Part shown: piece after piece, positions 23,641 to 48,809 of the stretch
Position numbering within the stretch: the stretch's first letter is position 1
Layout of the letters: each line of letters begins with the position of its first letter
Source of the DNA: Asparagopsis taxiformis
Taxonomy: Eukaryota; Rhodophyta; Florideophyceae; Bonnemaisoniales; Bonnemaisoniaceae
DNA: 64,000 bases
Assembly: GCA_030407315.1 (NCBI GenBank)
Contig: JALQPE010000348.1
Span: 1-64,000 of the forward strand
Direction of reading: 5' to 3'
Position numbers and translations under genes: made by a program
Notes under the pieces: generated by a model
Told to the model about the DNA's origin: nothing
The model's input: the letters and a program-made list of their open reading frames with translations, nothing else
The model's database searches: none

Positions 23641-23653
23641 GGATGGAACGAAG

Positions 23654-23691
23654 GTACGTGCGCGAATCGTGATCAAGATTCGCGCACGTAC
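23654..23691. repeat. Perfect hairpin, 15-bp arms and 8-base loop
   Basis: Arms 23654-23668 and 23677-23691 are exact inverted copies (GTACGTGCGCGAATC). They sit between tandem repeats and the start of element II homology and could mark an element end or a structured 3' end. Confidence 0.85.
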
Positions 23692-24291
23692 AAAGCAAAG
23701 TCGGTCAAAGAATATCAGTCGGTGATGAGGGCGGAGTGGAGCCTGCGGCGTCGACCGGACAGCTTTCAGCGTCCGCTTAAGTCTTGCTGTGCATACTCGA
23801 AATCATCGCCGGCAGTGAGATTGAGTATGGCCCAAGCCATGGTCTCTGATTCCCCGAACAATGAGATCCGGATCGAGAACAACGAATATAAACATATAAT
23901 CATATATATGAGAATCCATTTGCTTTCCTTACATGATCCGTGGCATATCCGCTGTAAAGCACATTCAGATTCCACGAAGTTTGGAAATAAAAAAGTTTAT
24001 TATTACAAATGAATTAATTGAAAATTCATCTCCCAGGGCAGTCGTTCGTCCTTCCATGCACACGTTGCCAGCACGCAATGTGATGTAACAGTTGGAAATG
24101 ATTGAACTCTCGGTTAAATTCCACCGTTGGGATGTCAGCTGGAGTGAGCACAAAACTACTACCCACAAAACTACGAACGAACACGTTACATTCCAAGTCT
24201 CGAAAGCACCACAAAATAAAATTGGTCGCATCTGGACGGCACAGTCTCCCCTGTTCAGCTCGCAATCCTCCCTTTTGCGTCAAAACTCGAC

Positions 24292-27200
24292 ATGGAATGC
24301 AAGTATGAAGGATGCTTCTACTACTGCGTAGATGCTTATGCGCTCGCGCTGCATGAGCGAACGTGTCGCTACCGTTTCAACCCCTCTCCCCAACATTTCA
24401 ACAACGCTCGTGTCCCTGCCGTCACCCATGAGCCTGCTCGAAACGGCGACCATGATTCCCCGCAACCCAGCTCCTCAGACCCAGAATCTGGTCGTGCTTC
24501 CTCCAGCGACTCACCCTGTGACGCTCCACTGCCACCAACCTCAACCCCCTCCCGCGCAGACCTCCTCGTGCAATCCCTCGCCGCCAGTCTCACAACCCTC
24601 GAGTACAAGGCCGGCGCTGGCCGCGTGAGCGAAGTCATCACCATCCTACAAGACCCCGCATTCTCCCTAGAAAAGTTCAACAGCGCCGTTCGCACCGTAG
24701 AAGAATGTCGCCACGTTACCGCTTCCATGGTCGAAACACATTTCCGCACCGAAGGTTACAAGAGCCACATCATTCCAGACAAAACTGGTAAGTACTCGGC
24801 ACAGCTGTACCTCCGCGACCCAGTCGACATGCTCCGCAGGCAGTTAGCACTGGCTAACGACCAAAATACTCTCTTCCACCCCTCCCCACAGACCGCCCCA
24901 GACGGCACCGCAATATTTTCTCATCCCCTACACACAGAATTCGCGAAAACGCTGCACCAGGTTACTAGACAGCGCGTGCAGCTCTCGGAAGATCCACAGG
25001 TCGTATGGGCAGAGGAAACTGATCCCACCGCTTCCTCCTTTGCCGGCCTCCTCCAAGTGTACTCCGACAAGAGCAGCACAAGCCTCAAGAGCTCCGCAAT
25101 CGTCGCATACCCCATACACGTCACACTGCTCAACTTCTCCGCCCCCCTCCGTCGCCACTGCATCCGTACCGGCCTCACCATCGTCGGGTATCTTCCGTAC
25201 ATTGTTAACCCTTCGTCCAACGCCTTGTTCGGTGATGAAATGCCGACAACCTCTAGTTCTGCTAGTCGCGCTCGCAAAATTGATATTCTTCATAAAGCAC
25301 TCGAAAAAGTGTTTTCGTCCCTATCCACCGCGTTCTCTTCCGGGTTCCCCTGCACAGACTCCACTGCAACTGCCCGCCAATGCTTTCCCATCCTAGCCAA
25401 TTATTGCTGCGACTTTCCAGAGGCCAAAGAGCTGTCATGCACTCGCAACAGCACTACCACCACACATCCCTGCCACCGCTGCTACATCCCCGCCACTCAA
25501 CTTGAATCCACCGCGCCACACCAGCCCCGCTCCCTCGATGATACACGCTCTGCACGCCAAGAGAGCGCTCAGGAGCATACAACTGCTCCGCTCGAAGCTC
25601 TCTCCCTCCTCGAACAACACTCTGTCCTCGAATCGACCGCTCTTTTACCCACCAACAGTCCCCTAGACCCCTACAACATTTTCTCCTTCGAGCCTCTGCA
25701 CAATCTCCACCTCGGCATCTCAAAGCTCATCAAACAGTGCATTGTCCACCGCCTCAGCTCCCCAGACCTCACCACCACCACTGCCTCCCATTCCGGGACA
25801 CCTCGCACCTTCAAGAAGGTGAAAAAATCCATCCTCGCCGGCTCAAACAGCATTCTGTCCGCTATCGAACGCGACTACTACATCACCGGTCTTCATGTCG
25901 ACTTCTCCAAGGGTGAGAAGGGCACCAATTTGAACGGCCTCTTCACGGAGGACGGCATACGCGGCATGCTCGCAGCCAAAGACTATCACCATGTCGACAT
26001 GGTGTTCCCTTTCATCGCAGCATTCATTGACACATGCTGTGACGAAGTAGAGACAGCCCCCCTCACTTCCATCTGCACGCAATACTCTGACCTCGTCGCA
26101 TGGGTCATGAAACGCGGTCGCATCAAGCACTGGACTGCCGCCGAACTCGAAAGCCTCCAGAACTCCATTTCCTATTTCAAACAATCAATGCTCTCCACCC
26201 TCGGCCCATTCCACACCACAGGTCTCAAAACTTTCAAGTTCCATCTTCTTGACCATCTTCCCGGTGACTTGCAGAGATATGGCGCCCTGGAACACATTGA
26301 TGCAGGCCCCTACGAACACTCGCATCTTCTGTTCAAACAGAGTTATAGGAAAACCTCTCGAAGGCGCTCCACAGCCATGGAAGAGACTATTCGCCACATG
26401 GAATTCTCCTTGGCCACTCCAACTGGTCACACCCCATCCAACACATTGGGAAACGCACGCATGATATCGCCCACAGACGGTGCAGTACTCGTTCGCGACG
26501 GATTCACCGTTGCACTGCACGACTTTGCCTCCCTGCTGCCCGATGCAACCCTCCTCGTTGCAGATATCGACGGACAGCCCGATCCTGCCACTCTTTTGCC
26601 TCTGCACAACTCCTCGTTCCCGTCTGGCACCATAACGCTATTCCAGCAACTCGGTGACACAGCTGCACAAGCGTTCCTCACCCTCGCTAGACTGCGCGCC
26701 ACGGCAGAAGGCCCTCCAATACATGACATGGACATTTCCGTCACCGTGGTAAAGTCCGCCTACGTCATGGGAGGGTACGTCCCAGATGCCGACGACTTTG
26801 ACCCGCACAGTGGCATGCTTCGCCCCACAAACGTGTCGAGGCACAAGCAGCAGCGCGTCTTTGCAACTTCATCATTCGGCCCCGCAAAGAGATCGCAGTA
26901 CTCCTTTGTCGTCATCTCCGGAACTGCCGATGACTACAGAACCATATGGGTAGGGCGCGTCCTGGCACTGGTACGCCTGCAGTCTCCAAACCTGTTTCAA
27001 CCTGTAGAACTCGCTTTCGTTCAGTATATGACCTGCTTTGCCCCAAAAACCGCTGTGGAAAAATCACTTGGGTGCATTTGTTTAAAGTGGTCCACATGGG
27101 ACCCGGACAACGGATCCGTTGACAGCAATGACACTGCATCCCACAGTGCAGGTGGTCCTTGGTTTGACCTCATTCCTGCATCTACTATATCTGGCACCGT

Positions 27201-27333
27201 GCACATCGTACGAAGTAACTTTCCAGTCAAGCCATTTACGAAACAAATGCACTGGTCGGACCACCGTTTCTATCTCAACCGCTTCTACACCAACACTGAT
27301 TACCAGTTCACAGATGATAATGAAGAAGAATAA
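24292..27333 (+). CDS. Tnp2/Plavaka-like (CACTA superfamily) transposase
   Basis: 1013 residues, intact. The N-terminus has a C-x4-C-x12-H-x4-C zinc-finger-like motif (residues 3-25). Typical blocks of Tnp2/Plavaka transposases follow: DFPEAKEL then PCHRCYIP (about 375-395), EPLHNLHLGISKLI (about 465), VFPFIAAFIDTC (about 570), and KTFKFHLLDHL followed by GPYEHSHLLFKQSYRKTS (about 646-690). The last block parallels the conserved E-x3-H-x3-K-x2-YR-x-T signature of these enzymes. The C-terminal part (about 870-960, TIWVGRVLAL then ELAFVQYM) resembles a chromatin-reader barrel. It is convergent with the coiled-coil gene, with a 77-bp gap. The inverted copy at 59831-62868 is frameshifted. Confidence 0.75.
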   Translation: MECKYEGCFYYCVDAYALALHERTCRYRFNPSPQHFNNARVPAVTHEPARNGDHDSPQPSSSDPESGRASSSDSPCDAPLPPTSTPSRADLLVQSLAASLTTLEYKAGAGRVSEVITILQDPAFSLEKFNSAVRTVEECRHVTASMVETHFRTEGYKSHIIPDKTGKYSAQLYLRDPVDMLRRQLALANDQNTLFHPSPQTAPDGTAIFSHPLHTEFAKTLHQVTRQRVQLSEDPQVVWAEETDPTASSFAGLLQVYSDKSSTSLKSSAIVAYPIHVTLLNFSAPLRRHCIRTGLTIVGYLPYIVNPSSNALFGDEMPTTSSSASRARKIDILHKALEKVFSSLSTAFSSGFPCTDSTATARQCFPILANYCCDFPEAKELSCTRNSTTTTHPCHRCYIPATQLESTAPHQPRSLDDTRSARQESAQEHTTAPLEALSLLEQHSVLESTALLPTNSPLDPYNIFSFEPLHNLHLGISKLIKQCIVHRLSSPDLTTTTASHSGTPRTFKKVKKSILAGSNSILSAIERDYYITGLHVDFSKGEKGTNLNGLFTEDGIRGMLAAKDYHHVDMVFPFIAAFIDTCCDEVETAPLTSICTQYSDLVAWVMKRGRIKHWTAAELESLQNSISYFKQSMLSTLGPFHTTGLKTFKFHLLDHLPGDLQRYGALEHIDAGPYEHSHLLFKQSYRKTSRRRSTAMEETIRHMEFSLATPTGHTPSNTLGNARMISPTDGAVLVRDGFTVALHDFASLLPDATLLVADIDGQPDPATLLPLHNSSFPSGTITLFQQLGDTAAQAFLTLARLRATAEGPPIHDMDISVTVVKSAYVMGGYVPDADDFDPHSGMLRPTNVSRHKQQRVFATSSFGPAKRSQYSFVVISGTADDYRTIWVGRVLALVRLQSPNLFQPVELAFVQYMTCFAPKTAVEKSLGCICLKWSTWDPDNGSVDSNDTASHSAGGPWFDLIPASTISGTVHIVRSNFPVKPFTKQMHWSDHRFYLNRFYTNTDYQFTDDNEEE

Positions 27334-27410
27334 ATCTAAATCGCAGCACTCTATTGATAATGTACTACATGATAAGCCTTCTAGTCAACGTCACATTTAC
27401 TGCACTAATT

Positions 27411-29705
27411 TCAACCATCCTCCATTACGCCAAAACTGTTATCAGCAGTTGCTGCATGGCGCCGCTCCATGCCCCCATACTGTGGGGCATTGATTTCTAC
27501 ATTCAGGTTTGCACTCAGGTGTCCAGCATATGGGTCAACGACGAAAAGTTCTGCGCCAATTAGTCCTTGCGCAATCACACAATCCATTACAGCACCGAGG
27601 TTTGACGTAATATGCGATTGAATCCAATCCTCGGACACTAGAACAAGTGATGAGCAACGGTTTACATCATCAACGACATGAACAATTCCAGACCCCTCTC
27701 CGCTTTGCCACACTTCAACAGCCTCTCTCGTCACAGTACGGCTTGCAAACACATGCCGTGACTGTGCACTAGTCCGCTGTTCGCTCTCGACAACGTCCGT
27801 TTCTTCCCTTGCTTGCGAGCCTTGGAGACAAGACATGCAGTACACCACCATACCAACTAATTGCTGAAAAGCTACCCCCACATATTGACTGTACCGCCTT
27901 GTAAACTCCTTCTGCCGTGCACCTCCTTTCCCCTTCGGTTCATCCAAACACTCCACAGTAGTCACTAGCCAAGCATCCAGGCGCGCCAGCGTTAGTATGC
28001 TCGTCTCTATGTCCATTACTTGTTCTGGTCGTATCGAATAACCCCTGAAGATGTCCAGCACATTCACAGCTACTCGGTTGTTAAACCATGCATCACCATT
28101 CACTTCCATTTCGAAGCTGTCAGGAACCATGCCTTTGCTGTATCGCAGCTCTGAGAACGGTGCCGTTCGCCACCTCCCCATATCCAAATCACCGTTGCTT
28201 TCCCGTTTCAAAAGCTTCTCAGACGCTTCGCGCTTTTGATCCTCTCGCTCGTCCATCTCAGCTCGCGTCGTCAGCATCGTGCATCTAGACATTAATTTCG
28301 TGTACCCCAGCGAACCGAACAATCTGTCCCTCGCATTACGCTTCCGTGCACTCATCACGTCGGACAGTTTCTGCGTCACCTTCACTTTCAATTCCTTGCT
28401 CCCCGCCACAGCCTCTTGACAGCACACACGCTGCTCCTCATCGGAAAACACATCACACCACGGACTTTGACGCAGTACGTGTCGCACCAAGTCATTCAGC
28501 AGATCACTCTCGTCCCTGTACGAAGGTGTACGAAGGTGTATACCACTGCAGATTCTTGATGATATAGCCCGGAGGGGTAGCAATATATCCTACACCGTTT
28601 TCGCTCCAAAGTGTCCCTTCTACCGGCTCTACCTCGATGGTACGTCCAGTCCAACGTCTCTGCGTTTGTTCCGCTATAGGGTCCAGCTCCATAGTCTCGT
28701 TCTTGCACCACTTTGTCAGGTTTTCCTCAACCGCCCTAAGAACTCCAAGGTATTTCACAGGAATGGCTTTCTGTATTTTCGACTTACCGCCACCGTGATC
28801 ACTGATTCTACCTGTTCTCGCAATTGCAGTAAGGCTGGCATTTTCCGCCTGCAGAGTCTTCACCTTAGCCTCCAACGCAACTATCTCCGTGGTGAGCGCC
28901 TTGTTTGCTATGTCCTGGCTAAACACTTTTTTTCCAGCTCCGCGATCTTCTTCTTCTGCGCATTGATGCGACTCGCCATTAAATCGATGGATTCCGGCGG
29001 ATGCAACCTCTCTGCCCTCACCGTCCCCCCATCTCGCACGCTATCGGGATTATGATGTCCTCCATCGGCAATAGCCTGACGTCGCGGGGGCGTTACGCGC
29101 ATATTTGGCACCAATGACAGTCTGTTGTGACGAGGCCCGCACTCCGGCTGCTCTCTCCCCTCAGTACCACCTGACCGCCGATGATAGTTGGCATCCTGTG
29201 AACGTTGCTCAGAAACAACATCCCTTGCCGCTATCCTCGGGTCCCTGACTGCATTACCTGCTGGGGCTGATGTACTCGGCATAGTTGGCGCAGTGGGGGT
29301 CACAGCCTCCAGTGTCTCGCGAACCCCCGGCTGGGACTCCGTCTGCAGCACCTCCGCATCTGCCAACCCGGGAGGAACTACCTTTGCCATAGCACTCTGC
29401 CGCAATTCCAACATGTTTTGAGCCACTATCATGTCATCATCATGATGTTCACTGTCCCTGCGAGCACGCTTGCCTCGGTCAAGCCCCATCTCTCTCCGCG
29501 CCGTTCCTCCTTCCTCACTTTCTCGCTGCGGATCCCCAGTTCTGCGCCGGTCCGTCTTGCGACTACCGGACCGCGGTTCAATGCTGCCGGTAGGCCCAGA
29601 CCGCTTCTTCGCACGGGATTGTCGGGCACTCGATACAGCAGCTGCTGACCGGGTTTTCTGGAGGCCCGGAGGCTTTGGAGCTTTCTTCGCAATACGCGGC
29701 GGCAT
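27411..29705 (-). pseudogene. Coiled-coil protein of element II, expressed in three frames or broken
   Basis: Three consecutive open segments form one protein of about 760 residues. Segment A (29705-28908) starts with a basic N-terminus (MPPRIAKKAPKPPG) and ends in a heptad-rich helix. Segment B (28926-28504) continues the coiled coil (ALEAKVKTLQAENASL). Segment C (to 27411) is a helical, acidic/basic protein with no recognised domain. A passes to B by a -1 shift at an A-AAA-AAG heptamer present in both copies. B passes to C across a 10-bp tandem duplication (28520-28539) that breaks an otherwise continuous frame (WYTPSY then RDESDLL). A DNA-binding or transposase-partner role is possible. 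The family is not recognised. Confidence 0.5.
28926..28932 (-). promoter_or_regulatory. Candidate -1 ribosomal frameshift site A-AAA-AAG
   Basis: In the frame of segment A the codons read GAA AAA AAG, a canonical X-XXY-YYZ heptamer. A -1 slip continues with GTG TTT AGC CAG into the coiled-coil frame, while the zero frame stops six codons later. The same arrangement is present at 58231-58237 in copy 2. Confidence 0.45.
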
Positions 29706-30360
29706 AATGAAGCTTTCCCCGAAGCGATGGAACGATTGAGTTGCACGAGATACAAAAAAGATTGCTGTATAGTGTCGGTAACCACAACGGTCTGCGATGA
29801 ACGTTCAGGTCAAGTACCGGAGAATACGCCAACAGCCCAGATTGTATACGGTAGGCAGTCATCAACAGTATTTAATGAGGTACAATTACAGCTGTCGAGC
29901 TAGGCCGCGAGCACCCCTATGTCCGGAAGACGTCCTGATTTGAATTAAAATTTGGGCTATTCTCAAAAACATGCACATGTGAACATGTTTTTGAGATGGG
30001 GGTGTGCCGTACGGCACAATCGACCCGCTGAAATCGATGTTTTTTGCAATATTTTTTTCTGCCCTGAATTGTAGAATTTCTGGGCTGGACAGCAATGCAA
30101 CTGAGCTGGACATCCACCGGGCGTCCATTTCAACTTGGTCTTGTATTTTGCATCTGCACGCATAACAGCATCCAAGCAGTCAGGTTCACTGCTCGGACGA
30201 AGTGCACCTAGAGTGTGAACGATTGGTTTTTGACAGGCGAGTACTGCTCAATAGGTTTCACCCTGGACTAATGGTGGCTGGACATGCTGCATTATATGAT
30301 ATACTTCAACTCTGGAACGTAGCTTTATTTGTAGTCGAAATGAAAACATCTTTCGTGACC
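29706..30360. other. Intergenic with module A
   Basis: This region lies between the 5' end of the coiled-coil gene and the 3' end of the MTase-SET gene. It contains the palindromic module at 29936-30120. In copy 2 the corresponding DNA has a CCTGA unit expanded to four copies (57337-57358). Confidence 0.5.
29936..30120 (-). repeat. Palindromic module A of element II
   Basis: ~185-bp noncoding module. It holds the 16-bp perfect palindrome TGTGCCGTACGGCACA at 30003-30018 and, beside it, a hairpin whose 12-bp arms CTCAAAAACATG and CATGTTTTTGAG flank a CACATGTG core. Confidence 0.95.
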
Positions 30361-33300
30361 CTAATTCCATGCTCTAAACGCTGTCCCATAATGAACGTAG
30401 AGCTCCTGCCCTGGACGGATATCGCGGATTGCACGTACTACAATGATCTTCGGATTTTCTAGGTCCTTCGCCTTGAGCTTCTTCCCCGTCGAACCGCTGC
30501 TGTAGTTCTCGACAAACTCGACGTTGGCCATCCGCCTGGTGTCTTCCGCCGGAGTGTCCTCACCTCGCAAATACCGCGGGTCGTTGATGAACTGCGCCGA
30601 ACAGAACGGAGCCGGAACAATCCAAATTGGATGCTCGATGTTTTCGTCGTCCTCCGCTGTTGCATACAGCTTGATGGCATACATCAAGAATGTTTCCTTC
30701 GTTATCGCCATGTGACCCTCTCCGTACGCGAACCTCATCGACTCCTTGCTCATATCAGAGTACACAACAGTTCCGTAGTATGCACATACTTCGTCGCCAA
30801 CATTAAATGTCTGTTCAGCGAAGAGCCCTCTTCCTGCATTTGGATGCTTAATCAGCGATGGTCGAACGCTCAATTTTTTCGCAACACAATCGTGTGCCCG
30901 CATCACGCGAGGGTTTTCAGTTTGCAACCAGCGGCGCAGGGAAGGTGGCCAATAATGTACCGGTTTTTCCATGTGCTCGTGCGACGCAATCGACTCTGGG
31001 CACAGCTGCCAGAGGTACTGCCGAATATATTTCGGGAACCTCTGGTACAGGGGAAGGCCAGGTGGGGGTTCGATGATCCTGCGTTCCCTCTGTGTACGCA
31101 TCGTGACAGAGGGGGACGCCAAGAACTTCTCAGCACTCTGTTTCGCTTCTGTCGTGACCCTCATGTCAGTGTTGTTTGAAAGAATTACACGTGACATGAC
31201 TGCACACAGCTTTGGAAGCGATCGTGCCACACACAATTTGTCCATGTCACTGCCGACGAAAACACGGTGCTCAGGCAAGCTCATAGCTGCTTTTCCCGTT
31301 GCGAAAGTGCCAGAGAATGGATCGACAACAATATCACCAGGCTGTGAATGCTGGCTGATCAACTCCATCATGAGAGCGACGCTCTTCTGCTCTGCACGAA
31401 CTCTGACCGTAGCACCGGTTGTGCTCCTTGTTCGCCACACCATCTCATTCGAATCGATGGCGGGCATATTGATGGTGACGTTGCACCACGCCGGGTACGT
31501 GCCGTCCATGTATCCGTGGTTCCTATAGGCCACCATCTCGCTTCCAGTCTTGAACGGAACACCTCGCTTCCAGAAGTGGATAGCGACCTCTGCCATGTTC
31601 ATGCGTTGGTACCTCTTCCGCCCCGGCATTTGATAGAGGTGCCCAGGTAGTCGGACAAACAACAGAGGTACCTCGTCAACGAAGAAAACTGAATTCCGAA
31701 CGACGTCCTCCTCCTCCTCCTCCTCCTCATCCGCACTTTCTTCGCCACTGTGCTGCGATGCTTCGGAGTCCGAATTCATGGACGTAACCTCTTCTTCATC
31801 CGACCCGTCATCACTGGCAGCAGCATCGGTTGGGCCTTCTGACTGCGGTCCTTTGTACGTTTCCAAGTAATGGAACCATTCGTAGAACTGCAAAACGGAG
31901 CAGAACACGATGCCGTGGCCACCGGGGCGCAACAGCTCGTCAAACACTTCGATGCTAGCCTGCATATCTTCTGCAGTTAGCCTGTCGTACGAAGAGTTGG
32001 AATCGTTCCTCTTACGACGAACATTGTAGGGCGGATCAGTCAGAATGAGCTGAACGTTGCCCGTGATGGGCACGTGTTCTCGGCTCTCGTCGGCACTGAC
32101 CAAATCTTCGAAAGGGACGTCGTACACCCGGCAATACTGACTCATTTTCGAAAGAAAGTCCTTTGCGAGAGCCTGCCCTTCACTTTCCTGCTCTTCTGTC
32201 GCATGGGGTGACGGTGACGGGGGAGACGGCCCTTGGGCAGTAAGACTGGTCCTCCCAGGTCCAAGTTGAAGCCTGGTTGTGTGTCTTGTCGACGGAACCA
32301 AACCTCTCCCTCCTGTGTTGCGACGAGTGGGAGTGTCATCAACCGGCTTGGGGACCTTTTCTGCGTCCGCGGCTTGTGGTGCCGGGCGGAGGACAGCCAT
32401 AACGTCTTCGTCGAGGGTGTCAAAGTACGCTGGCAGCTTGTCCGGATTTCCGCTTGACAAGTATATTTCCAGCGCCCCCCAGCGGTCGGACTCCGGCCAG
32501 GTGTACAGGTCCGGGTTGACGATAAGAAACTGCAACCGGTCGAAGAACTTCCTCACAAGGTCCCTAAATGCACTGTGCTGCGCACTGGTTCTTGTCTCTA
32601 CTTTTCCACCATATCCATCAGGATGAGATAGGGGAGCTTTGTCGTGGTAGAGATCTAGCTTCTGCTCCATCGGTGCGAATAGACCTTCATCGAGCACGTC
32701 AAACCAATGCTCACTGCTGTCGAAAATGATGTACGGCGCCATCAACTCTTCGAAGCTGGAAAACTTTGCGGCGAAGGCCACATCGGTCCAAGCATGGTAT
32801 AAAACTTGAACCACGTAACAAGCTCGATTAGTGCTTTTCCGATGGGCTGGGACGCGTGCGGCTTCGTTCCCCTCTTCGGCCGCGTCGCCTATTCGGCGAC
32901 GCGGCAGGTTCTTGTTGTGATTTCGGATGATAGACAACGCTTGGAAATACATCAATACCTCGAACGTTTCCGGTGGAGCAAGAACGAAGGCGCTTGGTTC
33001 CCCGCGCTGCGGCGCCTGTAGTGGCGAAGGAAGCATGTTACATCCAATAAGGAAGGTCTGCGGCACGATCCCAGAAAGGATGCAGTGCTCAACCCATTGC
33101 CCGATACGCTCATCCTGTCTTGAAAACTCGGCAATCGGTAATGCCAGACGAACAATCTGCTTGGCTCGCTCAACGTTCATCTCTGCCATGACGATTTCGG
33201 CAACATCCGCCTCGACTCCAGCATTCTTCGAACGACCGCTGAAGGCCATGCTGAGTCGACCTTGCAGCGCCAGAAATTGTTCTTCCGTGCCCTGCGCAAC

Positions 33301-33555
33301 CCAAGCGCCAAGGTCCGCGTATGTGAAACCTCCCGGCTTGTCCGTCAAGTCTGCGAAACTTGAGTGGGCGAATAAATCCAGCAAGAGGCGGAGGAAGTCT
33401 TTGCCAGCGAGAGTAGTTTCGCGGGCGGCGCGACCTACGTTTCGACGTGTACCCATGTCACTAGAATCCTCCCAAGGGCTAGCGGGTTCGCGCAGAATTG
33501 GCACGGTTGCGTCGTCAACGATCGGATTGCTGTTGCGCCTGCGCTTATTCGTCAT
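30361..33555 (-). CDS. N6-adenine DNA methyltransferase-SET domain fusion
   Basis: 1064 residues, intact. Residues about 45-370 form a helical domain I do not recognise. A Pro/Thr-rich linker precedes the methyltransferase: motif IV DPPYN (Asp507), ELLRPGGHGIVF, an acidic insert (about 580-620), then motif I VVDPFSGTFATG (Asp745). Motif order IV to I marks the beta class, with N6-adenine the likely target. Residues about 895-1060 form a SET domain: NAGRGLFAEQ, YYGTVVY, FINDPRY, NVEFV and ELYVHYG correspond to the AdoMet- and lysine-binding blocks, although the usual NHSC is replaced. SET proteins methylate protein lysines, usually on histones. One polypeptide could therefore mark both DNA and histones, by inference. 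The gene is divergent from the ParB gene across a 2.56-kb region. In copy 2 it is split by a Copia insertion. Confidence 0.85.
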   Translation of the reverse strand: MTNKRRRNSNPIVDDATVPILREPASPWEDSSDMGTRRNVGRAARETTLAGKDFLRLLLDLFAHSSFADLTDKPGGFTYADLGAWVAQGTEEQFLALQGRLSMAFSGRSKNAGVEADVAEIVMAEMNVERAKQIVRLALPIAEFSRQDERIGQWVEHCILSGIVPQTFLIGCNMLPSPLQAPQRGEPSAFVLAPPETFEVLMYFQALSIIRNHNKNLPRRRIGDAAEEGNEAARVPAHRKSTNRACYVVQVLYHAWTDVAFAAKFSSFEELMAPYIIFDSSEHWFDVLDEGLFAPMEQKLDLYHDKAPLSHPDGYGGKVETRTSAQHSAFRDLVRKFFDRLQFLIVNPDLYTWPESDRWGALEIYLSSGNPDKLPAYFDTLDEDVMAVLRPAPQAADAEKVPKPVDDTPTRRNTGGRGLVPSTRHTTRLQLGPGRTSLTAQGPSPPSPSPHATEEQESEGQALAKDFLSKMSQYCRVYDVPFEDLVSADESREHVPITGNVQLILTDPPYNVRRKRNDSNSSYDRLTAEDMQASIEVFDELLRPGGHGIVFCSVLQFYEWFHYLETYKGPQSEGPTDAAASDDGSDEEEVTSMNSDSEASQHSGEESADEEEEEEEDVVRNSVFFVDEVPLLFVRLPGHLYQMPGRKRYQRMNMAEVAIHFWKRGVPFKTGSEMVAYRNHGYMDGTYPAWCNVTINMPAIDSNEMVWRTRSTTGATVRVRAEQKSVALMMELISQHSQPGDIVVDPFSGTFATGKAAMSLPEHRVFVGSDMDKLCVARSLPKLCAVMSRVILSNNTDMRVTTEAKQSAEKFLASPSVTMRTQRERRIIEPPPGLPLYQRFPKYIRQYLWQLCPESIASHEHMEKPVHYWPPSLRRWLQTENPRVMRAHDCVAKKLSVRPSLIKHPNAGRGLFAEQTFNVGDEVCAYYGTVVYSDMSKESMRFAYGEGHMAITKETFLMYAIKLYATAEDDENIEHPIWIVPAPFCSAQFINDPRYLRGEDTPAEDTRRMANVEFVENYSSGSTGKKLKAKDLENPKIIVVRAIRDIRPGQELYVHYGTAFRAWN

Positions 33556-33902
33556 AATGGAATGAGTGGAAATTCGGTACAGGATGGCGACCGCTCGGCG
33601 AGACAGTCAAATTTGACGACGTATCTCGTGACGTTTGCACTCTTTCGTGAGGAACACTGGTTGATATCGAACGGAACAGAGTATACGGGTACACAGCACT
33701 GGAAAGGTCTTGAAACCCGTAACCGGTGTAGGTAATAAGTTGTGACGGATACGTGGTAGAGAAAAATTTAAAAAGATTGTGATTCCCTGTCTTTGAGTGT
33801 TGTACTGCACGGCCGCCATGGCGGCTGTGACTGCAGTCACATAGGTTGTCACAGGTGCATCACGCTTACCAGGTGAGCGACATCCGGACGGCCACTGGAC
33901 AT

Positions 33903-34081
33903 GGGGATGTCCAGCTCAGATGCATTGCTGGCCAGACCAGAAATTCTACATTTCGGGCAGAAAAAATATTGCAAAAAACATCGATTTCGGCGGTCGATTG
34001 TGCCGTACGGCACATCCCCATCTCAAAAACATGTTCACATGTGCATGTTTTTGAGAATAGCCCAAATTTTAATTCAAATCA
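33903..34081 (+). repeat. Palindromic module B of element II
   Basis: Same module as A, with the 16-bp palindrome at 33999-34014. It lies about 350 bp upstream of the MTase-SET start codon. Confidence 0.95.
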
Positions 34082-34109
34082 GGATGCAGATATTCGTCTT
34101 CTAGCATTG

Positions 34110-34358
34110 TCAGAACACATTCGTATAACCAAATTTGGAGAACCTGAGCCCAGAGCTATCGGTTTTGGCGGGAGCTAAGCCATATCTCATATAATCAGTA
34201 ACTACTTCCCGCCAGCTGAGTGGTGGAACCCCTGCTATTTCTACCAACGAGACATACGGGGTGTCAACTCGGCAATCGTATATGATTTGGGTGCTAAATT
34301 TATTCAAGAGACGAATGGGCTTCGAAAAGGAGCCCAACAACGTTTTCTTGTGATCCAT
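34110..34358 (-). CDS. Possible 82-residue protein
   Basis: The ORF MDHKKTLLGSF to the stop at 34110 has protein-like composition (for example STQIIYDCRVDTPYVSLVEI) and is preserved in copy 2 (46818-47066). Its start lies in the repeat unit that twice more presents an in-frame-like ATG followed by GATGAGAAGAAA. The function is unknown. It may be the last exon or relic of a gene. Confidence 0.3.
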   Translation of the reverse strand: MDHKKTLLGSFSKPIRLLNKFSTQIIYDCRVDTPYVSLVEIAGVPPLSWREVVTDYMRYGLAPAKTDSSGLRFSKFGYTNVF

Positions 34359-34690
34359 GGGTATAGGACTATTCTATTCTTCTCCAGGCTTCCACCATAG
34401 CCTCCTCCACCTCCGTTAATGGAAAGAATATCCGAACCGCACCTCAACATGTTTTTCTTCTCATCCATGGGTACTGACATCTCCGAGATGTGAGTCACAT
34501 GTTCTGCAGGCTTCCACCGTAGCCGCCTCCTCCGCCTCCGTTAATGGCAACAATATCCGAACCGGACCTGAACATGTTTTTCTTCTCATCCATGGGTACT
34601 GACATCTCACATGTTCAACATGTGAGATGTCAGTACCGGAGAAGTTCTCCAGGCTTCCTCCGTAGCCACCTCCTCCACCTCCGTCTGTGG
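34354..34690 (-). repeat. Three-unit 110-125-bp repeat, Gly-rich when translated
   Basis: Units begin at TCCATGG in 34354, 34464 and 34589. On the minus strand each contains GGAGGCGGAGGA-type codons giving GGGGYGGSL. Frame and stops differ between units, so this is a decayed coding repeat or a structural repeat. Confidence 0.7.
34596..34638. repeat. 43-bp palindrome: 21-bp arms, 1-base spacer
   Basis: Arm 34596-34616 and arm 34618-34638 are exact inverted copies around a single C. It is retained in copy 2 at about 46537-46579. It would extrude a cruciform or form a strong RNA hairpin. Confidence 0.9.
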
Positions 34691-35223
34691 GAATCAACAC
34701 AACATCACCACTGCGTCTTACCTCACATCCACATCTCTCCGGGATGAAAACGGACGGACGACATAGGGTTTGTAGACGTTTAGAATCTTGTTAGAAAAAA
34801 GTAAACGAAAGAGAACTTCTCTTTCATTGAATGATATCTCGTCCCTGTCGCAATATGTTCCATTTTCAATTTCTCGGGTTGCACACCCATCATGGGTGAT
34901 CAAGGCCTGGATCGAACCCTCCGAGGGTCTTCGATGGATAGGACAGATAGTGGAAGGCTTTTAAGCCTGTGACCAAGCGGCTATTGATTGGTTGGAGGAA
35001 GGAAATTACAGAGGAAATATAGCTGAGTACGGTGCTCGCGATAGCTGTTAGGTTGAAGTCAAATATGTTTTTCGATTATTTTTCGTACGGAAATGCCTTG
35101 GAAAAGACGATGCTTTGTCGTTCTCTTGGAGGGAGTCCGTTGCATTGCACTCAATTCGAGAGCATCGTGATGAAGGAGAGGATTCTTTCTGCTTGTTAGA
35201 ATCGGTTTAGAGCATATAGCTAT

Positions 35224-35385
35224 TGCATTGCTGGCCAGCCCAGAAATTGTAGAATTTAGGGCAGAAAAAATATTGCAAAAAACATCGATTTGGGCGGTCG
35301 ATTGTGCCGTACGGCACACCCCCATCTCAAAAACATGTTCACATGTGCATGTTTTTGAGAATAGCCCAAATTTTAATTCAAATCA
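35224..35385 (+). repeat. Palindromic module C of element II
   Basis: Same module as A, without its first 25 bases; the palindrome is at 35303-35318. It is followed by a ~190-bp secondary segment (35386-35575) that is also found after module E. Confidence 0.95.
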
Positions 35386-35589
35386 TGGTGTCTAATTTGG
35401 CCACAACGGCCCCATGCACCGGCCGCCGCCCCGAGTGGGGTTGTCACTGGCTTCTGTAAGCACTACCTGTAAGGCTAAATGGCGTCTCACGAAGGGTCGA
35501 TTTCAGGCTCAATACGCCAGGGACAGGTCTTGGTCCTTGTTCCATCATGGTCCCACCCCACTCTCTCACGACCAACCTGAAATGGACGT

Positions 35590-35773
35590 CCGGTGGATGT
35601 CCAGCTCGATTGCACTGCTGGCCAGCCCAGAAATTCTAAAATTTCGGGCACAAAAAATATTGCAAAAAATCTTGATTTCGGCGGGTCGATTGTGCCGTAC
35701 GGCACACCCCCATCTCAAAAACATGTTCACATGTGCATGTTTTTGAGAATAGCCCAAATTTTAACTCAAATCA
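35590..35773 (+). repeat. Palindromic module D of element II
   Basis: Palindrome at 35691-35706. With module C and the segment between them, it forms a repeat-spacer-repeat array about 350 bp upstream of the ParB start codon. Confidence 0.95.
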
Positions 35774-36118
35774 GGGTGTCCCCCGGATAAAGGGGTGCTC
35801 GCAGCCGCCCCAAAAGCCGCCTAGCTTGACAGCTGTAATTTTAACACATTACACATCAAGGAAACTGCCTGCTTCACGCCACCTCGTCAGGTTTCGAGAG
35901 CCCGACTCGGGCCCGTTCCGAACGGACACTCACATCTCGATTGCCTCTCTTGCATTCCAGCGGTCACGATAGGTCTGTACCTAACAAAATTTCGGTTGTA
36001 TTGTGTTATTATTTCCAGCGATTGGCGTTCACGACCATTCTTCAACGTGAAACATACCATCCACATCACTCCAATACGTCAACGTCAACCATCTCTTTTC
36101 CTTTCCAACTCAACAACC

Positions 36119-38161
36119 ATGGCGGATACGCATTTCAGCAGTTTGACGGTTTGCGGCGATCAAGTGAGCGCGTCAGCGGAGTCGCGCGGACTCAAGCGCG
36201 GCGTCGATGTCAATTTGTTTGCGGACGTGGACGGTGCGGCTGTGCATATTGGGACGGCTTCGGTGAGCACTGCTGGTGGCGATGTTGGCCTTCCGCGCAC
36301 GCTGCACAACCACAAGCTGCCGGAAACCGACGAGGCGGACTATATCGTCGTGCGCAACATTGCGACTAAGGACAAGTTCAAGGACCTCCCGTTCCCGTAC
36401 ATGTTTGATGGCGCTGAGGGACCGCCGGAGACGATGGGTGGAGCATACGCCGCGGCGTTTTACCCTTGGGATACTCGGATGATGCGCCCCGCTGCGGAGG
36501 ATGGCCCTAGCGACATTCGTACCCCTGCTGCAGCGTCAAACTTCAACGCAGCGACGAACCAGGCCAGCTCGGGACGGATGCCCAGTACCGGTCCAGCAGG
36601 CGAAATCACTGGTTCGGGGGGTACGAAGCATCCAGCACGCTCCATTCCGGTTTCGGGAGGCACGAAGCACCCTGCTCGCTCCAACGTCACCGAAGCTACT
36701 ACGCAGGACGTAACCGAGGTGGACGACGAACCGGAGGTGGCGGAAAGCATTCGTGAGCAGCAGGGGACGCAAATTACGGTGCCCAAGTTTGTGACGTCGG
36801 ATTACGTCGGAGAAGGAGCGACTGTGTTGGTGAGGCAGCTAGTGGAACCGGCCGTGACCCTTCGGGATGTGAAAGAAGACCACGTGGAGGACTTGCGCAA
36901 CAATATGTTGGCTGTGGGGTATGTGAGCTCTTCGCGTATCACTGTGACGGTGCTGAGGTCGCAGGACACGCATCTGCCCGCCGACACGCGTCTGTTCCAG
37001 AATGGCAAATTCCATGCCAATGCGAACGTGACCGTGATCGACGGACTGCATCGTCTCAATGCTATGCATAGCATTGCGGATGACTTCACGCGCCTCACCC
37101 GTATGCACAGAACCAAGCTGCCACAGGACGCAAACCGCTTGCGCTGGGTTACTCAGCCTCTGGATGTGTACTACCTTCGCCGCAAGGACGACAGTGATCT
37201 TCAGCCTCATGAGATCATCCACAAGAGTGCAGAGTCGAACCATACGACTGGGACGCAACTGACGGAGCGCTCCCTGGTTCGAATCTTGTCGTCCATCCAG
37301 CAGTTCATCCGTACGATTGCTGTTGCAAATAACGTGGAAAACGCTGGCGACTTGCGTGAGTCTGATGTCATCCGAACATTGTTCGAGGCGCAGTTCATGG
37401 GGATGATGAATTCAACGAACACGGCCCGGCGGTGGACGCGTTTGGCTATAGCAACGCTGAAGCATCCTGTTCTCGACGAAGTGTTGCGTGAGCTGAACAA
37501 TTCCGAGCGCCGCAACGAGATTGGGATAACGCACCTGGACCACAAGATAGTGCGCGAGTTGCTGGAAGAAAACTTTGTCTTCGTCTTGCGTGGTCTTTCG
37601 GAGTACTTGAACCCTGCTCATGGTGGACGTCCGGATGGACGCTTTGACGTGAACGACTTCTATACATACGTCCGTCGCGTCACTGCAATAGCAAATTCTC
37701 TGTACGATGCGTTTGGGCGCCCAAAGAGTATTATGCGCAAGTCATTTCTGAGCACAGAGATGGCAATTGGGTCTGTTAAGCAGCCGAAGGAGTTGCAATG
37801 GCATCTCACCAATGCCATTGCAATGTATAGAGGGGACGACCGGAGCAGTGAGGTTCGAATGCGACGGAGAACCACGCGTTTACAGGATTTGGAAACGAAC
37901 TTCAAAGAGTTTTTCAATCCGACATTGAAGAAGAAGACTAAGGCTCGACGCAAACGCCGCCCTTCTGCTGCCAATGTGACACTCACTCACAAGAAGCAGC
38001 GGAATGTCGAACATGAGCCTGCTTCGCATGGCATCCGCCGCCGTTCACAGCGACTTCGCTCGACGGGGAGCACACGCCTCGAGGAAGAAGAGCCGGTTGT
38101 GGTACAACAATCCGCCGGGGAAGAAGAGCAGGCCGTTGTTGATAAACCCACCGATCAATAA
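36119..38161 (+). CDS. ParB-like protein of element II
   Basis: 680 residues from the ATG at 36119, chosen for its ACCATGG context; an upstream in-frame ATG at 35996 adds 41 residues of unlikely sequence. Residues about 235-330 look like the ParB/sulfiredoxin fold, with VTVIDGLHRLNAM (Asp308), the DGxHR box that in ParB proteins binds CTP or acts in the nuclease-like site. A helical region follows (about 380-560) that may hold the DNA-binding part, then a basic/acidic tail. The frame continues past the TAA at 38159-38161 as acidic protein-like sequence into the dioxygenase-like gene, with one further TAA (38273-38275), so the two were probably one fusion protein. In bacteria ParB binds palindromic parS sites; here the palindromic modules are candidates. 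Confidence 0.7.
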   Translation: MADTHFSSLTVCGDQVSASAESRGLKRGVDVNLFADVDGAAVHIGTASVSTAGGDVGLPRTLHNHKLPETDEADYIVVRNIATKDKFKDLPFPYMFDGAEGPPETMGGAYAAAFYPWDTRMMRPAAEDGPSDIRTPAAASNFNAATNQASSGRMPSTGPAGEITGSGGTKHPARSIPVSGGTKHPARSNVTEATTQDVTEVDDEPEVAESIREQQGTQITVPKFVTSDYVGEGATVLVRQLVEPAVTLRDVKEDHVEDLRNNMLAVGYVSSSRITVTVLRSQDTHLPADTRLFQNGKFHANANVTVIDGLHRLNAMHSIADDFTRLTRMHRTKLPQDANRLRWVTQPLDVYYLRRKDDSDLQPHEIIHKSAESNHTTGTQLTERSLVRILSSIQQFIRTIAVANNVENAGDLRESDVIRTLFEAQFMGMMNSTNTARRWTRLAIATLKHPVLDEVLRELNNSERRNEIGITHLDHKIVRELLEENFVFVLRGLSEYLNPAHGGRPDGRFDVNDFYTYVRRVTAIANSLYDAFGRPKSIMRKSFLSTEMAIGSVKQPKELQWHLTNAIAMYRGDDRSSEVRMRRRTTRLQDLETNFKEFFNPTLKKKTKARRKRRPSAANVTLTHKKQRNVEHEPASHGIRRRSQRLRSTGSTRLEEEEPVVVQQSAGEEEQAVVDKPTDQ

Positions 38162-38458
38162 CAAGCCACTGCTTCTGGTGATGAGGTTGACGAAGACTCC
38201 GCCCGTTCCCCCGATTCTGCCGTTGAGATTGTCCCCCAAGATAACCAACGTGCTGGTGCGACTCCCTCCAACTAAGAATCTGACCATACTGCTTCGGACG
38301 AGGAAGACAAAAACGGTGCAGACGAAGGCCAAGTCGAAAGCAAGGGGGTCCGCGAAGTGACAATTACATTCACTGTTCCGGAAGGAGAGGAAGTCGATGA
38401 AGACGGTTACATCGTTCGCGACTCTCCATCTGAACACGACCTCCTGTTCGACGACCGT

Positions 38459-39997
38459 ATGCCATCTCTTCCTGACGATTTCGAAGTCAAAGACCGAGCC
38501 GAAGGGCATCATCTGGCGCAGCGTCCCGCGGACGTCATCGCATCGGTGAGGGTTGGCTGTCTGCCCCCGATTGAGCTCAGGTTGTTATTGGAGAGTGTGG
38601 AAATCGATGAGGAGGGCAGAGAGGTGAAGTATTTGAAGCAAGTGGCGATGGACCCTGTGTTTGAGGGGCTGCATATTCCGGAACAACATCGGGCTCGTCA
38701 TCTTGTTTTGGAGATCGACACCATCTATCCGATGTTTTTCGCAGCGTGGAAGATGGCTGCCAAGGCGATGTGTGAGCCTACATCGACGTTTCTACCCTCG
38801 AGGCTGGATTTCGCTCAGGTTGCGCGAATGTCTACAAGCTGGAAGGATTCGTATGAGGCCGGCACTGGTATGGCGTACTTCCACAATTGCCGAACGGAAA
38901 TCAACGAGCGAGGGTATACGGTGATGCACAATTTCGCGGATGTAAGCTACCTCGATGCGTCGGACAAGTTCCCATTTGACTTGGGTCTCATGGAAGAAAT
39001 TCCTAACCAGGAATTGTTTCGGTACTTCTTGGGAACATGGGAGGGGGAGCAGGTGCACAAGGACCCTGGGAACCGGCAGCTGTGGAGTCCCATTGTCAAT
39101 ACGGGGGACGATGAAACAGATGAGAAGAACCGGAATGAGGGGAGGGCTCGCTTCACGTCTACGCGCCACTGCCTGGTTGACTATGCCGAGAACGATGAGA
39201 CGCATATCGACCGGTTCAAGTTTGTGACGCGGCGAGCCCTGCTGGATGTGTGGTTGGGAATCCTTGTCCGGCTGATAGGGCTGGAGGAGTGCGGTTTACC
39301 GGGAGAAAAACTTGTCATGCCGGCATCTGGGGGACGGTTTTTGATAACGGGAAAGGGGTGTCCTCGGCAGGTCCCACACAATGATTTCCCTGTTCTTCCT
39401 CGCGACCGCAAAGATCAACTTCCGGGTTACTTTGTTATTGCCAACGGAGATGACCCATTCCCTATCTGGGTGTGTCCAGGGTCCCACAAGTACGTCTTTT
39501 CCAAAGCGCTGGAATTAGATATGTACGCCAAGACGATGAAGCTGAAGAAGGTAATCGTTCCGCCACGTTCAGTCTTCATCGGTCACGGCCATGTACAACA
39601 TGCCGGGGCAGGGCATGTCGACAGAGTTGTGTCACACACGACAACGAGGTATCACACGTATTTCAGGAATGCGTCGTATCCGATTCCCGACAATTTTTCG
39701 TTTGGTTTCATCAGGCGGTTGGGATTCGAAGAAGAAGTAATCGCCAATGCTCCGCGCCGGTCTGCCAGGCAAAGTCAACCGGCACCTGTCAATGTTCGCC
39801 ACAAGACAGTTGTTCCCATCCCGGTCAAGAAAGATCGTAGGCCGAAGACAGGGCAGCTCGGAATGATGCGGATGAAGACGACAGAACCTCGCAAGCCTAT
39901 ATCCTACACAATTAGTGGGGTCCCGGTGATGCCTATTCTGCCGGGAGATCCTGATTATAGTGGGGACGAAGAGGAAGAACAATTTTCCGACGGCTAG
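38459..39997 (+). CDS. Candidate 2OG-Fe(II) dioxygenase (PhyH/JBP-like)
   Basis: 512 residues from the first ATG (38459). The open frame starts earlier, right after the TAA at 38273-38275, with no ATG, which supports its origin as the C-terminal half of a ParB fusion. The proposed iron site is His-Asn-Asp in QVPHNDFPVL (the H-x-D triad start, codons at 39377-39385) and a distal His in GHGHVQHAGAG (near 39581-39605), followed by an Arg-rich strand (VVSHTTTRYHTYF) that could bind 2-oxoglutarate. Spacing of about 70 residues fits the double-stranded beta-helix fold. JBP/TET-type enzymes oxidise methylated bases and travel with some fungal transposons, so a DNA or histone demethylase role is possible. 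The subfamily is not certain. Confidence 0.5.
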   Translation: MPSLPDDFEVKDRAEGHHLAQRPADVIASVRVGCLPPIELRLLLESVEIDEEGREVKYLKQVAMDPVFEGLHIPEQHRARHLVLEIDTIYPMFFAAWKMAAKAMCEPTSTFLPSRLDFAQVARMSTSWKDSYEAGTGMAYFHNCRTEINERGYTVMHNFADVSYLDASDKFPFDLGLMEEIPNQELFRYFLGTWEGEQVHKDPGNRQLWSPIVNTGDDETDEKNRNEGRARFTSTRHCLVDYAENDETHIDRFKFVTRRALLDVWLGILVRLIGLEECGLPGEKLVMPASGGRFLITGKGCPRQVPHNDFPVLPRDRKDQLPGYFVIANGDDPFPIWVCPGSHKYVFSKALELDMYAKTMKLKKVIVPPRSVFIGHGHVQHAGAGHVDRVVSHTTTRYHTYFRNASYPIPDNFSFGFIRRLGFEEEVIANAPRRSARQSQPAPVNVRHKTVVPIPVKKDRRPKTGQLGMMRMKTTEPRKPISYTISGVPVMPILPGDPDYSGDEEEEQFSDG

Positions 39998-40683
39998 ATA
40001 GCTTAACAACAACTACTAGTAGTACTTTAGCAAACAATTATCAAGAATATAATCATCTCCTTTATCACTTTGAATCTATGAACCTAGTATAATGTACTTC
40101 CGTTCCATGCTTTCAAACTAGATTGTCCATTCCCTCGTGGGTTGGAGCATGATTTCCAGGACGATTCCCTCACATCTGTAGACTCGATGGTCTATGGTAG
40201 AAATAGCAGAACAATTGGGTTTGTACGTGCTTCATCGCCTACTTGCTTCCGGTAATGGGTGGACGTGCACGATACACGATCAACCTGAAATAGACGTCCG
40301 GTGGATGTCCAGCTCAGATGCATTGCTGGCCAGCCCAGAAATTCTACAATTTCAGGCACAAAAAAAGATTGCAAAAAACATCGATTTGGGCGGTTGATTG
40401 TGCCGTACGGCACACCCCCATCTCAAAAACATGTTCACATGTGCATGTTTTTGAGAATAGCCCAAATTTTAATTCAAATGAATGTGTCTTAATTTGGCCA
40501 CAACGGCCCCAGGAAACGACCGCCGCCCCGATCGGGGCTATCACTGGCTTCTATAAGCACCAACTGTAAGCCAAAATCGCGTCTTACGAAGGTTCGATTC
40601 CAGGCTTTAAGCCTAAGTTATGCTAGGGTGACATCTTTTTCCCTGTTTCATCATGGTCCCGCCTTATTCCTTCACGACAAACA
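39998..40683. other. Right flank of element II with module E
   Basis: Gene-free. It contains module E and the secondary segment that also follows module C. That segment carries GGTTCGATTCC near 40594, which matches an RNA polymerase III B box. The similarity to element II stops at about 40682, where truncated Copia sequence begins. Confidence 0.55.
40298..40480 (+). repeat. Palindromic module E of element II
   Basis: Palindrome at 40399-40414, about 300-480 bp downstream of the dioxygenase stop codon. This is the only module without a partner in copy 2. Confidence 0.95.
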
Positions 40684-43771: not shown

Positions 43772-43787
43772 CACTGGGCCCATAACC
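43772..43787 (-). other. Primer-binding site, initiator-tRNA half type
   Basis: Immediately inside the LTR the minus strand reads GGTTATGGGCCCAGTG. This can pair with the anticodon stem-loop of an initiator Met tRNA (CCCATAACC contains the CAT anticodon), as in Drosophila copia. Confidence 0.55.
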
Positions 43788-44275
43788 TGTTGATAAAGTT
43801 TGGTCGCTTACCGAGCGTTTACTGATTCTGCGAGCTCACTACATAATTTGTATTCTCGCCGAGGTGCGCCGGCGGTGCTAAGGACAGCCTGTTCAAGGCT
43901 GCTCCAGACAGACTGTCACTGACAGTCTGTCCTAGCAAGCACCCGCTGCCAATCTGGTACACGTGGGCTTCTCTATCATATCATCCACACGTGTACACTT
44001 ATCATAACATTTTCCCTGTGCCATGATGGCAACCCATCTTGGCATTTCTACTTACTAATTGAAACTATGACAAACAAATTGAAACTTCAGAGGCCAGTTA
44101 CTCCGTAATGGAGTGTCGTAGGAGCCCCGGAGAAGTTGCTACCCGACTAATTCGGGCACGCTGAATACGATGAGATAGGTGTCAGAGCGCTCAGACCACT
44201 CCTTCTAGGAGAAAACGAGGGTCAAAGTTTTCTCACGGAATTAGGCCTACCAGGCCCATTCTCAGTGAGTCAACA
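43788..44275 (-). repeat. Copia 488-bp LTR (5' LTR)
   Basis: It begins TGTTGA and ends TCAACA (6-bp inverted ends). It contains a dyad with 12-bp arms around GACAGACTGTCA and another around GTACACGTG. It is similar over its length to 63323-63810, which has the same length. Confidence 0.95.
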
Positions 44276-45057: not shown

Positions 45058-45401
45058 GGTTGTTGAGTTGGAAAGGAAAAGAGATGGTTGACGTTGACGT
45101 ATTGGAGTGATGTGGATGGTATGTTTCACGTTGAAGAATGGTCGTGAACGCCAATCGCTGGAAATAATAACACAATACAACCGAAATTTTGTTAGGTACA
45201 GACCTATCGTGACCGCTGGAATGCAAGAGAGGCAATCGAGATGTGAGTGTCCGTTCGGAACGGGCCCGAGTCGGGCTCTCGAAACCTGACGAGGTGGCGT
45301 GAAGCAGGCAGTTTCCTTGATGTGTAATGTGTTAAAATTACAGCTGTCAAGCTAGGCGGCTTTTGGGGCGGCTGCGAGCACCCCTTTATCCGGGGGACAC
45401 C

Positions 45402-45586
45402 CTGATTTGAGTTAAAATTTGGGCTATTCTCAAAAACATGCACATGTGAACATGTTTTTGAGATGGGGGTGTGCCGTACGGCACAATCGACCCGCCGAAA
45501 TCAAGATTTTTTGCAATATTTTTTGTGCCCGAAATTTTAGAATTTCTGGGCTGGCCAGCAGTGCAATCGAGCTGGACATCCACCGG
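45402..45586 (-). repeat. Palindromic module F (copy of D)
   Basis: Palindrome at 45470-45485, identical to the other modules. Confidence 0.95.
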
Positions 45587-48804: not shown

Positions 48805-48809
48805 CCGCG
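48805..48809. other. Target-site duplication CCGCG, left
   Basis: CCGCG here and at 54778-54782 flanks the Copia LTRs. The uninterrupted copy 1 gene has a single CCGCG at the corresponding place. Confidence 0.95.

Follow-up and report, generated by a model that had tools for sequence, protein, structure and literature searches.

Two large transposon-like elements that lie about 3 kb apart in a 64,000-nucleotide stretch of the red alga Asparagopsis taxiformis (assembly GCA_030407315.1, contig JALQPE010000348.1, positions 1 to 64,000, hereafter the window) were found to carry the same pieces, namely a ParB-like part, a beta-class DNA methyltransferase and a domain that we designate X, beside two different transposase-type proteins, and each element holds a palindrome that occurs nowhere else in the window. 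The first, element A, spans ~12.7-21 kb and its ends were not found, and the second is a Plavaka-type element present in two inverted copies. These observations suggest sequence-specific self-marking, in which the same cassette would serve two elements with different transposase proteins, a reading that we hold tentatively and put a little short of an even chance. The window is eukaryotic in content, containing copia retrotransposons and a gene with a TOG domain (XMAP215/CLASP profile, E 7.5e-50) in addition to the two elements. The open reading frames (ORFs) were called without splicing, 17 of them were scanned with profiles, and the features are listed in Table 1.

In element A the pieces are joined in a single chain, in the order of a ParB-like N-terminal part (DGMHR at residue 196 and a stretch that looks helix-turn-helix (HTH)-like by eye), a DPPY methyltransferase at residues 639-851 and a C-terminal domain X. 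The C terminus of this protein and the N terminus of the Plavaka ParB-like protein share domain X with 31 of 102 residues identical (E 3e-7), the ParB-like motif DGxHR is common to both elements (DGMHR in A, DGLHR in Plavaka), and the two methyltransferases match each other (BLASTP E 2e-7), with PHROG 67 being the top PHROG of both (E 4.9e-17 for the Plavaka protein). A single ParB-methyltransferase-X chain in one element and X-ParB plus methyltransferase-SET in the other thus amount to the same pieces in two arrangements beside two transposase-type proteins. An identification of domain X as the plant DUF8039, which it resembles, was rejected, with no such Pfam match even at E 10. In the Plavaka methyltransferase, DPPY at residue 507 lies upstream of DPFSGT at 745, the permuted order of beta-class N6A/N4C methyltransferases, and its top PDB sequence matches are DpnA (E 4e-8) and CcrM (E 0.0019), whilst the SET domain in the same ORF spans the full PF00856 profile (1-105). 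The Tnp2/Plavaka-like transposase and the DPPY methyltransferase fused to SET, both proposed in a first-pass annotation of this DNA, were recovered by profile searches, and a DNA writer together with a probable protein-methylating SET domain is linked to the transposase in both copies, as that annotation had stated. PF01555 accordingly lies beside PF18759 in the Plavaka element and beside PF25273 in element A, the mobility of which is presumed. The DUF7869 protein is presumed to be the transposase of element A, PF25273 itself being a family of unknown function, and its best alignment with the Plavaka transposase was not significant (E 0.69); element A would on this basis be mobile.

The motif CAGAA-N5-TTCTG was observed at 10 exact sites within 14110-20253 (6.1 kb of element A) and at none elsewhere in the 64 kb. 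It was first noticed in the repeats before the ParB-methyltransferase gene, and a scan of all gapped inverted words then ranked it first there. Shuffled sequence contained it 0.09 times on average and twice at most (100 shuffles), and a dyad scan (5-base half-sites, spacer 0-12) of 100 first-order resamplings of 11800-22500 never returned more than 4 copies against the 10 observed, with maxima of 2, 2, 1, 2 and 1 in five control stretches of the window. Seven of the ten sites lie inside ORFs. Four are in the ParB-methyltransferase gene, where synonymous-codon shuffles gave a mean of 0.11 and none of 5000 reached four, and three are in the DUF7869 gene (mean 0.14; 1 of 5000 reached three), so that the ORF-borne sites are beyond what the encoded proteins demand. 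The stricter form CAGAAC-N3-GTTCTG is weaker in the DUF7869 gene alone (1 site, reached by 59 of 5000 shuffles), and the accessory gene at 12744-14042 contains no CAGAA-N5-TTCTG site. With one mismatch or fewer, the stricter form has 11 matches, all in element A, and exactly two mismatches add 6 more, 3 of them outside element A (3.2 expected). In the spacer before the ParB-methyltransferase gene the sites form pairs 25 bp apart, at 14328/14353, 14470/14495 and 14110/14135, the second of the last pair having two mismatches.

The Plavaka element harbors a different palindrome, the perfect 16-bp TGTGCCGTACGGCACA, with five sites in copy 1 and four in copy 2. Its length and TGT..ACA ends recall bacterial parS. 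A short motif that is dense in its own element and rare elsewhere was thus found in both elements, all 10 CAGAA-N5-TTCTG sites and all 9 TGTGCCGTACGGCACA sites of the window lying inside the respective element, a count that covers 64 kb only. Each of the five TGTGCCGTACGGCACA repeats of copy 1 also holds a 13-bp-arm inverted repeat. Over an 85-column core, the limits of which were chosen after the alignment was seen, 83-85 identities were counted in all ten pairs, as compared with 62-65 of 71-73 in the left flanks and 14-67 of 77-89 in the right flanks. Gapped-dyad scans found no dispersed dyad in the coding sequences of the Plavaka element, and GGAC-TCC words, considered as sites, were dropped because they are also present outside the element. 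Another 16-bp palindrome that begins with TGTG and ends with CACA, TGTGACTGCAGTCACA, stands at 33826-33841 upstream of the methyltransferase-SET gene in both copies, and the divergent spacer between the methyltransferase-SET and ParB genes contains a 125-bp tandem repeat (34380-34684) with a 21-bp-arm inverted repeat (34595-34637).

Such palindromes might instead be sites of the transposase or of transcription regulators (promoter, insulator or terminator hairpins), with the methyltransferase aimed by other means, which we consider rather improbable. All five Plavaka copies are intergenic, three of them in the divergent methyltransferase-SET/ParB spacer, the palindrome block also holds a hairpin-capable inverted repeat, and CACTA-type elements commonly contain enhancer-like internal repeats, all of which would agree with regulatory sites. 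The sites of element A, on the other hand, are scattered over 6.1 kb, with seven of ten in ORFs above the synonymous expectation, unlike subterminal transposase sites or promoters.

The second Plavaka copy is inverted and shares 99.05% identity with copy 1 over 23835-32372 and 99.65% over 32368-36900, in agreement with the two inverted copies described in the first-pass annotation. Between the copies the methyltransferase-SET gene has accumulated 11 synonymous and 3 nonsynonymous changes (binomial P 1.4e-5 relative to the proportion of nonsynonymous sites, with no model of transition bias), and this gene is under purifying selection. The transposase shows 9 synonymous and 12 nonsynonymous changes (P 0.044; 3 gap codons set aside), and therefore the cargo enzyme has been kept at least as well as the transposase. 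Among the accessory ORFs, the one starting at 27411 has 4 synonymous changes, 1 nonsynonymous change that is a stop in copy 2, and 1 gap codon, and the one at 28908 has 1 synonymous change, 1 nonsynonymous change and 1 gap codon; the 28504 ORF was left out of the comparison, and the 2-oxoglutarate (2OG) dioxygenase-like gene has no second copy. This is because copy 2 stops inside the ParB gene, where window position 44276 corresponds to copy-1 position 36900 and meets a repeat resembling a long terminal repeat (LTR). Hence the missing 2OG gene reflects truncation, not a true element difference, and copy 2 was rejected as a natural 2OG-less element; the earlier placing of a dioxygenase-like protein in copy 1 is true of the window, copy 2 being cut short. 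The repeats at the two ends of copy 2 (43787-44275 and 63322-63810) were read as LTRs because they have TGTTGA..TCAACA ends and a copia C terminus is encoded just to the right of the second (E 1.4e-4 at 63853-63999). A further copia of 5968 bp splits the methyltransferase-SET gene of copy 2 at 48810-54777, with LTRs 99.8% identical and a 5-bp target duplication.

This constraint also bears on whether the cassette might be a protection from, or a relic of, a restriction-like conflict, or passive bacterial DNA with no role for the element, which seems to us a poor prospect. Fusions of ParB with N6_N4 methyltransferases are described as typical of phages in the portions of PMC12704722 examined, and the element-A methyltransferase has distant relatives on 11 phage and 432 plasmid records, the best of which share 24-30% identity. 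The purifying selection on the methyltransferase-SET gene, the recurrence of the cassette in two elements and the presence of SET in the same ORF argue against a passive passenger, the methyltransferase-SET protein has no phage match, and no restriction partner was recognised among the 17 ORFs scanned. The phage tblastn matches were themselves rejected as ParB fusions, since the 5 of 11 records inspected all encode plain methyltransferases of 230-263 aa. No relatives of a Chlorohelix plasmid methyltransferase were found in viral and genome contigs, and its N-terminal part has no Pfam ParB match. Searches of phage or plasmid proteins with the ParB-like, 2OG-like and methyltransferase-SET proteins of the Plavaka element matched nothing, and relatives of five window proteins and one DNA pattern were not found in viral contigs, in a scan that may omit records very near the window.

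Under self-marking, the ParB-like protein or domain would bind the palindromes of its own element, CAGAA-N5-TTCTG in element A and TGTGCCGTACGGCACA in the Plavaka element, and the bound ParB would concentrate the beta-class DNA methyltransferase on element DNA, together with a putative SET lysine methyltransferase in the Plavaka element. The resulting N6-methyladenine (6mA) or N4-methylcytosine (4mC) and histone mark would most likely keep the chromatin accessible or block host silencing, in a VANC-like manner. In a bolder form, which we regard as unlikely, a bacterial ParB/parS-type DNA clamp would have been adopted by eukaryotic DNA transposons as an address system: each family would evolve a parS-like palindrome of its own (16-bp TGTG..CACA in the Plavaka element; CAGAA-N5-TTCTG, embedded even in coding sequence, in the DUF7869 element) on which the clamp loads and spreads, depositing adenine or cytosine methylation and a SET histone mark on that element only, and the resulting self/non-self epigenetic code would pass from one transposase family to another as a cassette. 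Alternatively, the cassette might restrain its own element, which the host would then quietly tolerate, SET enzymes being frequent writers of repressive marks; we think this quite improbable. For bdelloid rotifers, the part of PMC8885841 examined treats 4mC alongside amplified SETDB1 variants that contain an MBD, and a role of 6mA in silencing transposable elements (TEs) of animals is mentioned as a proposal in that of PMC12695648. The same portions of the latter, however, associate 6mA with permissive chromatin in many eukaryotes and with expressed genes in the species named, which is why anti-silencing is favored over self-silencing, and element-level selection would hardly maintain a self-silencing gene.

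Several points weigh against self-marking, the first being the assignment of ParB. Profile searches with each protein matched the transposase, the methylase and SET, but none of the Pfam, PHROG, NCBIfam and PDB searches gave a significant match for the ParB-like and 2OG-like ORFs, the few listed profile rows being at E 0.05 or worse with unrelated names, and the nearest profile match for the ParB assignment is a sub-threshold DndB (E 0.018). No ParB match was found in PDB for the ParB-like parts, tblastn of these parts against phages and plasmids gave nothing or one match at E 3, and the ParB region of element A yielded a poor model, with a predicted local distance difference test score (pLDDT) of 36. 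Between the copies the ParB frame has 1 synonymous and 2 nonsynonymous changes over 301 codons (41 before the first ATG), too few for constraint. The SET domain shows FIND at 989 and ANVEF at 1010 in place of NHxxxPN, the usual SET catalytic motif, and with motif positions this unusual SET is only a candidate histone-modifying activity. The number of Plavaka repeats is not independent evidence because the blocks are partly duplicates of each other, unlike the conservation of the core above its flanks, which is independent. The palindromes could also be binding sites of the transposase or act in transcription, especially those of the Plavaka element, all of which are intergenic. Lastly, PMC12695648, in the portions examined, concerns MT-A70 enzymes, which are of another class than the methyltransferases here, besides the proposed TE-silencing role given above.

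The ParB and 2OG assignments are thus at motif level. The ParB-like call of the first-pass annotation stands on the DGLHR motif and the HTH-like stretch seen by eye, with no significant profile or PDB match, and for the DNA-binding organiser suggested there the private palindromes offer a natural partner. The 2OG-dioxygenase-like call likewise keeps its motif order read by eye, HxD(341-343)..PGSH(374)..H(412/415)..R(431), which we take to resemble PhyH-type dioxygenases, and gained no Pfam or relevant PDB match. No TET/JBP profile was matched by this ORF, nor any Pfam family, whether 38357-39997 was searched at E 1 or 38357-39700 at E 10, and its AlphaFold (AF2) model is unusable (pLDDT 32), so that the suggestion of a possible eraser found no support.

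The borders of 23650-40683 given in the first-pass annotation were not confirmed, since neither BLAST nor a comparison of 22300-24290 with 39998-40900 revealed a convincing terminal inverted repeat in copy 1, the latter giving only 14-mers with 2 mismatches, 11 of which were listed. Plavaka ends are described in the examined part of PMC12730594 as TGT..ACA or CATCA..TGATG inverted repeats with a 2-3 bp target duplication. For want of such a repeat, 23650-40683 is not an established element, and the set of genes cannot be called complete. Element DNA may continue to the left of 23835. A clean insertion into a copia ORF ending at 40684 was rejected, the other half of the copia not being seen to the left. 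Near the left side of copy 1 lies a 15-bp-arm inverted repeat, GTACGTGCGCGAATC, at 23654-23691, and between the two elements, at 22643-22840, hairpin-bearing 24-bp units stand in tandem (CTGGATACATATGTATCCAG; an AT run between CCAGAATA and TATTCTGG), possibly the terminal array of one of the two elements.

Outside the cassette, the accessory gene of the Plavaka element matched no family at cut-off in Pfam and PHROG profile searches. Its frame changes at an A-rich run (28850-28960, minus strand) between the ORFs 28908-29705 and 28504-28926, which might reflect an indel, splicing or a -1 frameshift. The accessory and DUF7869 proteins of element A have in common an N-terminal region and the C-terminal FVxxxGxGCTxExPFWLGxI..WY, and six 72-bp tandem repeats encoding an acidic GDGGGDGCGDN sequence lie at 12995-13511 of the accessory gene. 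No Rfam family was matched at gathering scores in the window.

Table 1. Features of element A and of the Plavaka copies in the window
Feature	Position	Strand	Evidence or remark
Element A accessory protein, 72-bp tandem repeats	12744..14042	-	N- and C-terminal regions common with DUF7869 protein, BLASTP E 4e-13
CAGAA-N5-TTCTG starts	14110, 14353, 14495, 15312, 15672, 16101, 17553, 18748, 18926, 20239	.	exact match
Element A ParB-methyltransferase-X protein, 1006 aa	15119..18139	+	PF01555 E 4.8e-14; PHROG 67 E 1.1e-23
Element A DUF7869 protein (presumed transposase)	18351..20975	+	PF25273 E 3.3e-48
Plavaka-type transposase, copy 1	24292..27333	+	1013 aa, open; PF18759 E 2.3e-24, profile 24-318 of 325
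Plavaka accessory gene, three overlapping ORFs (27411-28583, 28504-28926, 28908-29705)	27411..29705	-	frameshifted or spliced
Intergenic repeat 1, TGTGCCGTACGGCACA at 30003-30018, 13-bp-arm inverted repeat	29873..30179	-	
Beta-class DNA methyltransferase with C-terminal SET (residues 908-1057), one ORF	30361..33555	-	PF01555 E 2.9e-15; PF00856 E 1e-6
Intergenic repeat 2, palindrome 33999-34014	33905..34086	+	
Intergenic repeat 3, palindrome 35303-35318	35222..35392	+	
Intergenic repeat 4, palindrome 35691-35706	35567..35851	+	
ParB-like ORF with domain X at the N terminus, a DGLHR motif and, by eye, an HTH-like stretch	36119..38161	+	domain X E 3e-7; motifs
2OG-Fe(II)-dioxygenase-like ORF, uncertain start codon	38357..39997	+	motif order only
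Intergenic repeat 5, on the right of copy 1, palindrome 40399-40414	40239..40682	+	
LTR-like repeat at copy 2 end	43787..44275	.	89% like 63322-63810 at opposite end
Copy 2 (copy-1 36900 to 23835), LTR-like repeat at both ends	44276..63323	-	

Petroll et al. reportedly described giant Plavaka elements in the red alga Bostrychia moritziana in Curr Biol in 2025, and we presume that the Plavaka element here may be among them. ParB-methyltransferase proteins on algal transposons are already known, and the examined portions of PMC12477816 cite the Bostrychia work for such proteins. The same portions describe Sola1-1_Ec32 of Ectocarpus, a 21.5-kb DNA transposon that encodes ParB-like and N6A-or-N4C methyltransferase parts in one protein of ~1000 aa, cite green and red algal relatives, propose self-binding and self-modification and name no binding motif for the ParB-like protein. 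The element-A protein fits that description, the transposases being Sola1 there and DUF7869 and Plavaka here, and the Plavaka element differs further in its separate ParB ORF, its SET-fused methyltransferase and its additional 2OG-like ORF. The VANDAL elements of Arabidopsis offer the nearest functional parallel, as their anti-silencing protein VANC recognises a short motif that is concentrated in the element encoding it and scarce among other TEs, in arrays spread by tandem repeats; in the portions of PMC5735166 examined, the VANC21 motif YAGTATTAY is non-palindromic and mainly non-coding, the transposase is MuDR-type, and VANC is not described as a methyltransferase. DNA transposons with chromatin- or DNA-modifying enzymes also appear in the examined part of PMC12730594, where TET/JBP is reported from fungal Plavaka and KDZ elements, and SET from HarbingerS and MuDR; these carry an eraser or a SET gene, whereas a methyltransferase-SET fusion and a dioxygenase-like ORF not recognised as TET/JBP are found here. 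The fusions of ParB-CTPase with N6_N4 methyltransferases pair the same folds and are enriched in prophage regions, but they are bacterial, and no transposase or SET is named with them in the portions of PMC12704722 examined, where sulfiredoxin is given as the commonest eukaryotic representative of the ParB fold. Giant Plavaka-flanked repeats are known from Amoebidium, according to the part of PMC11244446 examined.

No transposon with this exact gene set was found in the open-access literature among the matches listed, so that the earlier remark to this effect stands for the set as a whole and needs to be qualified by the algal ParB-methyltransferase transposon proteins already published (PMC12477816, in the portions examined). 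New as far as checked are a Plavaka element that combines a methyltransferase-SET fusion, ParB as an ORF of its own and a 2OG-like ORF, the cassette common to two neighbors, and the private palindromes.

How transposons escape host silencing is a long-standing question. If each family carries its writers together with private address sites, self-marking becomes directly testable, since the predicted sites are short, few and named. Self-marking, if true, would explain the presence of bacterial-type ParB-methyltransferase proteins in several kinds of algal transposon.

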